A DNA stretch of 37,199 bases, taken from a virus. The position numbers were made by a program, and so were the translations under genes. The number at the start of each line of letters is the position of its first letter. Position 1 is the stretch's first letter. Where the stretch lies: positions 1-37,199 of the IMG/VR virus record IMGVR_UViG_3300018481_000042; one strand, written 5' to 3'. The notes below the pieces were generated by a model, which was given only the letters and a program-made list of their open reading frames with translations, was not told where the DNA came from and did no database searches. Positions 3,119 to 5,345 of this stretch are shown piece by piece.

Positions 3119-3245
3119 GCCTGTGACGGCTACAGGACGGACGGAGAGAGGGAAAGTGTGGCAGGAAGTGAGGATTACAGCGGCCAGCCGGTTCAGCCGG
3201 TTGCCCGGTGCAATCCGCACCAATCCCCTGATCAGGAGTTCTCTT

Positions 3246-4013
3246 ATGTTTAGAAAGTTGTTCGCTCCACTTGCGTTTGCTGCGGCGCTGGTGGCTTCAC
3301 CTGCGTCCGCTCTTGTTATCGACACGTTCGATGTCACTGGCTCGACCAGCACGCTGACGCTTAATGCAGTCGTGCCGGGCGGTAATCAGCCCACCAACAA
3401 TCCATGTCTGATCTGTGGCACGAACCAACCTGCCCAGCCGACCGGATTTGGGTACAATAACTTCGACGCGACGGGTAACGTCAGCATCTACAATATGTTC
3501 TCGACGGCAACTGTCGGCGGCAGCCTCGCTCAAGATACCTTGGGCACTGGCTACACGGTTGGTGACGGCTCGGTCCTGCGCGCTTACCTGTTGGCGCAGG
3601 CTTCAGGCACCACCTTCAGCGTCGGCATTGACGTGAATGAGGCCAACACGGCGCAGACGCTGGAGGCGTTCTACTTCCTGAATCTGACCGACCGCACGGT
3701 GCTGGCTTCCTACACCACGCCGACGCTGCTGCCCGCACCCAACAACGGCACGGGCTATCCCGACTACCTGTTGAGCGGTTTCAACATCGACCGTGGCGAC
3801 ATCTCTCTTGGCGATACGGTTATCTTCTTCGCGCGCTGGTCAGGCGCGAACGATGGCGCGGAATCGTTCTTCCTCGTTGCGGAGCCGCAGGTGAACGGCG
3901 TGCCGGAAGCCTCGACTTGGGTAATGATGATCGCTGGCTTCTTGGGCGTCGGCGGGATTGCACTGCGGCGTAACCGTCGCAGGAACGATCAGCCGCTCGT
4001 GCGGCTTACCTAA
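3246..4013 (+). CDS. PEP-CTERM (exosortase-substrate-like) secreted protein
   Basis: The frame opens at 3084, but the start is the ATG at 3246, which has AGGAG at 3234-3238 with 7-nt spacing and begins a classic signal peptide (MFRKLFAPLAFAAALVASPASA, cleavage about residue 22). The 255-aa product has a beta-rich middle and no domain I recognise. Residues 219-246 form a tripartite sorting tail: PEAST (220-224), a hydrophobic segment WVMMIAGFLGVGGIAL (225-240), and a basic cluster RRNRRR. This is the PEP-CTERM signal, normally cut by the inner-membrane protease EpsH/exosortase on the way to the cell surface or exopolysaccharide matrix. Nine extra residues follow the basic cluster, slightly more than usual. 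It is a stand-alone gene after the early operon, closed by a terminator: a moron-like position. Its presence in a phage is very unusual. Confidence 0.88.
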   Translation: MFRKLFAPLAFAAALVASPASALVIDTFDVTGSTSTLTLNAVVPGGNQPTNNPCLICGTNQPAQPTGFGYNNFDATGNVSIYNMFSTATVGGSLAQDTLGTGYTVGDGSVLRAYLLAQASGTTFSVGIDVNEANTAQTLEAFYFLNLTDRTVLASYTTPTLLPAPNNGTGYPDYLLSGFNIDRGDISLGDTVIFFARWSGANDGAESFFLVAEPQVNGVPEASTWVMMIAGFLGVGGIALRRNRRRNDQPLVRLT

Positions 4014-4077
4014 ACAGAAGAAACGCCAAGGCAGGCCTACCCCTTTGCCCAGTTAGCCCCCTGCCAGTTACTTCGAA

Positions 4078-4112
4078 GGGGACAGCTTGAAAAAGCTGTC
4101 CCCTTTTTATTT
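4078..4112 (+). terminator. Rho-independent terminator of the rightward unit
   Basis: A perfect 11-bp stem (GGGGACAGCTT at 4078-4088 paired with AAGCTGTCCCC at 4093-4103) closes a GAAA tetraloop and is followed by TTTTTATTT. It lies 65 nt after the PEP-CTERM gene and stops plus-strand transcripts just before the convergent late genes. The opposite orientation lacks a T-run, so it should act mainly rightward. The stop codon of the facing mini gene (4107-4109) lies inside its T-tract. Confidence 0.93.
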
Positions 4113-4781: not shown

Positions 4782-5345
4782 TCAGTGACCGTTTGACGGG
4801 TCGTCCACCTGTTGCGGCATCGGGTCGCCAAGCACCCGGATGACCTTGTCCGGCTTGCCGTCGTAGTTGCGGTCGGCGATGTTCTGAAATAGCAATGCCT
4901 CGCTCGCGCGCCTGCGCACCAGCCCGGTGAGAACTTTGCCGCCGCCCTTATTCCATTTCTGGAATTCCAGCGCAGCGCCCTCGAAGTTCTTTGCGTTGAC
5001 CTTCTTGAGCAGCGTCGACTTGGCAAGGTTGCCCGCGCCGCAGTTGTAGCAGAACGACACCAGCGCATCGTACTGCCACTGCGTCAGCGCAACCTTGACC
5101 AGCCGCTTCACTTCGCTTTCGTAAACGCGCATGTCGTCAACGAAGGCTGCGTTACATTGCGCCATCGACCAGACATCACCGGCCTTGAACTTCGCCTTGT
5201 TGGTCGTGCCCCATCCAATCGTTAGAACGCCAGCCGGGCACTTGTACGAGGTGTAGCGGTCCGGCCCGCAATTCTTCATGCAGCTTTCGAAGTGCTTGAT
5301 CAGGTTCGCCCCGGCTGGCGATAATGCGAGAGCTTCGTTCGGCAT
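4782..5345 (-). CDS. Endolysin, GH24 lysozyme
   Basis: A 187-aa muramidase of the T4/P21 lysozyme type, which cleaves the N-acetylmuramic acid to N-acetylglucosamine bond in peptidoglycan. The catalytic glutamate is E20 in HFESC. The second catalytic element is CPAGVLTIGWGTT, with Cys36 and Thr42 in the C-x5-T spacing in which Cys often replaces Asp. Between E20 and C36 there is a 7-residue insertion carrying further Cys residues (C22, C26), so a disulphide is possible. ALVSFCYNCGAG and the LVRRRASEALLF helix near residue 150 are also typical of the family. There is no signal peptide or anchor helix, so export needs the holin. It is preceded by gpD and followed by the holin candidate. Confidence 0.92.
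   Translation of the reverse strand: MPNEALALSPAGANLIKHFESCMKNCGPDRYTSYKCPAGVLTIGWGTTNKAKFKAGDVWSMAQCNAAFVDDMRVYESEVKRLVKVALTQWQYDALVSFCYNCGAGNLAKSTLLKKVNAKNFEGAALEFQKWNKGGGKVLTGLVRRRASEALLFQNIADRNYDGKPDKVIRVLGDPMPQQVDDPSNGH

Follow-up and report, generated by a model that had tools for sequence, protein, structure and literature searches.

We identified in the genome of a myophage a gene for an exported protein that ends in a PEP-CTERM sorting tail and that, judging from its sequence and those of its relatives, most likely relies on the exosortase of the host. As a whole, we favor with moderate confidence a model in which the host exosortase displays the phage protein, the tail serves as a host key, and a CBM-like domain is put to use in exclusion during infection. 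The sequences also tip the balance, if not by much, toward a widespread phenomenon: phages of soil Proteobacteria, most of them virulent, would display lectin-like proteins via host exosortases and exchange the tails as host-specific keys, including an uncatalogued VPGPxxGxGLP signal and an undescribed exosortase family seen so far, in this analysis, only in a few Alphaproteobacteria.

The phage gene, its product and its relatives

The window, as we call the whole stretch of DNA analysed (37,199 bases, entered in IMG/VR as a virus), is clearly that of a myophage, with genes for tail sheath, baseplate, tape measure, major head protein, prohead protease, tail fibres and lysozyme. The PEP-CTERM gene (3246..4013, + strand) is an open reading frame whose 255-aa product runs from MFRKLFAPLAFAAALVASPASA to VPEASTWVMMIAGFLGVGGIALRRNRRRNDQPLVRLT. 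The sequence reads as a ribosome binding site (AGGAG; 3234..3238, + strand) 7 nt before the ATG, and an intrinsic terminator with a 14-bp stem (4075..4106, + strand) lies 3' of the gene. Both signals with which the gene had been credited, the ribosome binding site and the terminator, stand; a sigma-70-like promoter was looked for and not found.

The product has the anatomy foreseen in the original prediction (signal peptide, beta-rich middle and tail). The predicted N-terminal signal peptide (residues 1-22; 3246..3311, + strand) shows an ASA cleavage-site pattern, and nearly all full-length relatives share its hydrophobic and charged profile. The conserved mature domain, a predicted beta sandwich (residues 24-212; 3315..3881, + strand), is supported by the family alignment (A2), an AlphaFold2 model and dN/dS, and carries the motifs PC[LI]ICG and DGxxSFF. 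The C-terminal exosortase sorting tail (residues 219-247; 3900..3986, + strand), assigned to the PEPxxW class with curated tail models, runs from VPEASTW through a hydrophobic stretch to RRNRRR. The profile search that the prediction had called for did not refute it: the protein narrowly passed the PEP-CTERM models PF07589 (20.8 bits against a gathering cut-off of 20.7) and TIGR02595 (16.3 against 16). With the PEPxxWA-CTERM model (NF035944) it scored 27.9 bits, under the cut-off of 35 that is passed by a close sister (L011, 39.4) and by a second one (L017, 38.7). A C-terminal model over its cut-off and a signal-peptide profile at the N-terminus are both present and together point to a PEP-CTERM protein. 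The family has no match in PHROGs and Pfam recognises the tail alone; it is a large family of exported phage proteins, unannotated until now.

A single-sequence scan of IMG/VR returned nine relatives and a profile scan at least 138, of which 80 were kept. In the window, the gene lies, as predicted, between recombination and lysis genes: a RecT-like gene (phrog_561; 2-757) is on one side and a convergent phage lysozyme (an endolysin, by family match; 4782..5345, - strand) on the other. An HNH-type gene and, upstream, a DUF7694 phage gene (2681..3118, + strand) are also among its flanking genes. The nearest relative (L012:9938-10705), whose mature domain is 89% identical, also neighbours a DUF7694 gene and sits, like the window gene, at the junction of DUF7694 and lysis/tail modules, but it is inverted with respect to DUF7694 and codirectional with the tail genes. 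Other phages carry the gene elsewhere. In about 14, its start follows the terminase large subunit gene by approximately 26 bp, capsid and portal genes come next where the contig extends that far, and expression together with the late operon is probable. Further sites adjoin DNA polymerase A and recombination genes, or tail fibre genes with GcrA encoded close by. With four or more types of genomic location among unrelated, otherwise ordered phages, the suggestion that the gene resembles a moron holds, and its behavior as a mobile accessory gene is supported. Purifying selection is clear from the coding sequences, with dN/dS values of 0.09-0.15 between the window gene and its nearest relatives and a median of 0.11 over 137 pairs. 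Searches by tblastn gave no match even at an E value of 1, either with family members in 50,697 INPHARED phages or with one member (L045) in 72,556 plasmids; tail-only tblastn queries also returned nothing, an uninformative result because they are short and of low complexity.

Two other observations concern the surroundings of the gene. Phage-borne GcrA, an alphaproteobacterial cell-cycle regulator, is encoded nearby at 13 loci (e.g., L047:4765-5187), which is a clue to alphaproteobacterial hosts. Moreover, tailed exported proteins with differing types of mature domain occur as tandem pairs at four loci (L056, L064, L086 and L028), the last with a 4-bp overlap between the open reading frames.

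Tail classes and host exosortases

The 66 distinct members of the family divide by tail into VPGPxxGxG (40), PEPxxW (nine), classic PEP (nine), VPLPA (six) and other (two) classes. Three of these are curated exosortase signals, with cut-offs passed in members that share the mature domain; the tails of relatives pass both the VPLPA-CTERM (TIGR03370) and the PEPxxWA-CTERM (NF035944) models. On a tree of the mature domain alone, the tail class must change 15 times or more, and several of these changes are forced by well-supported branches alone. One relative (L017) joins two signals in a composite tail, VPGPTVGA and then VPEPATWAMM, which is what a replaced tail would predict. We extended the comparison with a census that kept 80 of 163 PEPxxW loci (partly from isolate-derived records, which may include host DNA) and 80 of 187 VPGP loci, in 37 mature-domain clusters. 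The two largest clusters mix both tails: they are the window family and an unrelated second family (type L108/L010) in which the tail class changes at least three to four times. Pairs with 85-86% identical mature domains and unlike tails were found in the second family and in smaller families. Two second-family paralogues (L111 and L189) even share a contig of 80.6 kb (IMGVR_UViG_3300045110_000102), one with a PEPxxW and the other with a VPGP tail; this may mean that one host reads both, which would count against the tail as a host key. As the alignments read, the mature domain is kept while the sorting tail is repeatedly swapped, and the swaps probably fit different hosts.

The exosortase model TIGR04178 found no match in any of 40 phage records. 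Tail switching and this absence strengthen the case for dependence on the host, as the original prediction had proposed, although the records may be fragments and the absence is suggestive only. We propose that the phage protein would be exported via the Sec pathway and that the host exosortase would recognise its interchangeable C-terminal tail, cut it off and deliver the protein to the surface of the cell or to the exopolysaccharide matrix. For a phage that lacks an exosortase, the tail would therefore be a host-specific key; a lineage moving to a host with a different exosortase would retain the mature domain and have its tail replaced. The cellular PEP-CTERM/exosortase systems (EpsH, XrtA; Haft 2006, PMC1569441) offer a close likeness, with a signal peptide, a C-terminal proline-rich motif, a hydrophobic helix and a basic end, curated tail models in common and little homology outside the tail. 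Unlike them, the phage proteins are encoded without an exosortase, and one conserved mature domain bears several exchangeable classes of tail. Similarly, the tails that pass TIGR03370 and NF035944 recall VPLPA-CTERM/XrtD and PEPxxWA-CTERM proteins, and XrtD is encoded in G300, a genome that also has a related tail, yet in the phages these signals are alternatives on one protein family.

The commonest tail, VPGPxxGxGLP, was matched by no NCBIfam model in the members scanned. A profile of it gave five weak matches in 398 Pseudomonadota genomes, none of them a VPGP tail on inspection, and related tails were present in 4 of 385 alphaproteobacterial genomes. In one genome (G674, locus L276), a small protein with the motif MPGPIAGAGLP is encoded directly before a membrane protein that resembles exosortases and archaeosortases and scores 16.3 bits with TIGR04178, under the cut-off of 23. 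The genes around its homologue in G771 (L277) are arranged identically, and in both proteins C, R and H are conserved and follow one another as expected. Homologues of the exosortase-like protein were found in 9 of the 385 alphaproteobacterial genomes; at the three best-scoring loci (G674, G771 and G348), a GAG-type tail protein adjoins it, in two of the three with VPGP/MPGP motifs. A search of viral contigs for the exosortase-like protein (A5) found none. From gene order and motif, the VPGP-like tail and the exosortase-like protein would constitute an undescribed exosortase/signal pair. We found no description of VPGP as an exosortase signal in the open PMC literature, the scope of the search.

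At these three loci (L276, L277 and L291, the last in G348), the neighbours' tails read MPGP/VPGP/PAP..GxGLP. Two genomes with GAG-like or VPLPA-like tails carry known exosortases, XrtA in G883 and XrtD in G300. The former also has a cluster of secreted proteins (L278, G883:C56:3000-17000), two of them with GAG-type tails and similarity to choice-of-anchor C proteins.

Fold and possible use of the displayed domain

The AlphaFold2 model of the window protein is a beta sandwich (pLDDT 85.8). Foldseek returned nothing for it at an E value of 0.001 in PDB and BFVD, and a PDB profile search gave no sequence match. By VIA-align, it scored a Z of 7.5 with an Akkermansia enzyme domain and about 5 with lectins and CBMs, values within the common beta-sandwich range. 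For the model of the second family (pLDDT 81.7), CBM29, CBM22 and CBM61 ranked high, with Z up to 8.0, again at the level of a common fold. The phage proteins would share with these CBMs and with ConA-type lectins an overall beta-sandwich arrangement (Z about 5-8), but they show no sequence relation to them. Because the fold scores are at the common-fold level, we treat the term "carbohydrate-binding-like" as a lead.

On this lead, the displayed domain would most likely be a small carbohydrate-binding-like beta sandwich that coats polysaccharide on the surface of the infected cell. There it would most likely serve to limit further adsorption, either as superinfection exclusion or by sparing progeny from infected cells and debris. 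The effect would be comparable to that of Llp of phage T5, an exported phage lipoprotein that blocks the receptor (PMC9586334), and would act during infection and not in a lysogen. As with the T5 Llp/Cor superinfection-exclusion lipoproteins (PMC9586334), a small exported phage protein would take a host sorting route, possibly to the envelope during lytic infection. Llp is, however, a lipoprotein and not an exosortase substrate, and for the phage PEP-CTERM protein the exclusion role is one that we infer. Shielding of the receptor or surface is the likeliest use of the predicted displayed protein and still, taken alone, stands well under even odds; sorting by an exosortase is much better supported by the sequences.

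A different use, unlikely in our estimate but the strongest of the alternatives, is that the sorted protein reshapes the exopolysaccharide, through aggregation or the retention or release of virions, without blocking adsorption. The exosortase substrates known so far have been connected with exopolysaccharide and with the formation of flocs (PMC1569441; PMC9850573), ties that would favor such a matrix or biofilm modifier, as may the CBM-like fold. Changes that outlast the cell would, however, bring a smaller gain to a virulent phage, and nothing specific favors a matrix role over receptor shielding.

Cellular relatives, lifestyle and other explanations

Among 84,980 prokaryote species genomes, a first pattern scan (A1) gave 47 pattern matches and no relatives, and a second just three remote relatives (36-38% identity), of which two come from Comamonadaceae and the third from a Pseudomonadota MAG that is unclassified; both scans need short conserved peptides and contigs longer than 3 kb, and rare or divergent copies may escape them. 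Two of the three relatives (L089 and L090) have VPLPx tails and ordinary-looking open reading frames around them, a reading of which suggests that these copies are chromosomal. All three genomes encode an exosortase over the cut-off. In a survey of Comamonadaceae, 2 of 201 genomes had strong matches.

The same genomes bear on the original prediction of a conversion gene, which in the lysogenic sense was not upheld. A surface protein expressed from the prophage to the benefit of the lysogen would suit a stand-alone gene with its own ribosome binding site and terminator, and 3 of the 40 phage records do carry a tyrosine integrase. The other 37 records and the window do not (an absence that is suggestive only, since the records may be fragments), the 84,980 species genomes held no prophage copy and no close copy of the gene, and in about 14 phages it occupies a late-operon position after the terminase. 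The phages of this family appear, suggestively, to be mostly not visibly temperate, and the scarcity of integrases argues against lysogenic conversion, which we consider improbable, and for a role during infection.

We give a slightly lower probability to a protein that stays in the inner membrane, for instance to assist lysis or to block injection, with the tail as only a membrane anchor and its likeness to a sorting signal incidental. The terminal helix could plausibly span the membrane, and the window gene adjoins lysis genes. Yet the specific PEPxxW, PEP, VPLPA and VPGP motifs are retained, and each is exchanged as a unit, and most relatives have the gene away from lysis genes. Finally, an artefact, in which the gene is host DNA or comes from a chimeric contig, has a negligible probability: IMG/VR contigs are predicted viruses and the PEPxxW census includes some isolate-derived records, but many contigs from independent samples place relatives between terminase and capsid genes or beside DNA polymerase or tail genes, and the chimeric join at the window gene for which the prediction had allowed is rejected because this phage context is conserved, down to the DUF7694 and tail-gene neighbours that L012 has in common with the window.

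Host-dependent exosortase sorting would, if true, mean that phages exploit a host protein-sorting pathway. In the open PMC literature that was searched, we found no description of such exploitation by viruses, nor of a phage with a PEP-CTERM gene or family of its own; a Microcystis paper that mentions both PEP-CTERM and phage deals with host genes. The phages would then amount to tail-swap experiments done by nature, in which sorting signals are matched to exosortases, so that what the tails specify and the destination of the proteins would become directly testable. The class of tail would also offer a hint, readable in the sequence, of which hosts uncultured soil phages infect. The analysis further brings to light a protein family that is large and has lacked annotation and, in Alphaproteobacteria, an exosortase and a signal that are candidates for a new pair.
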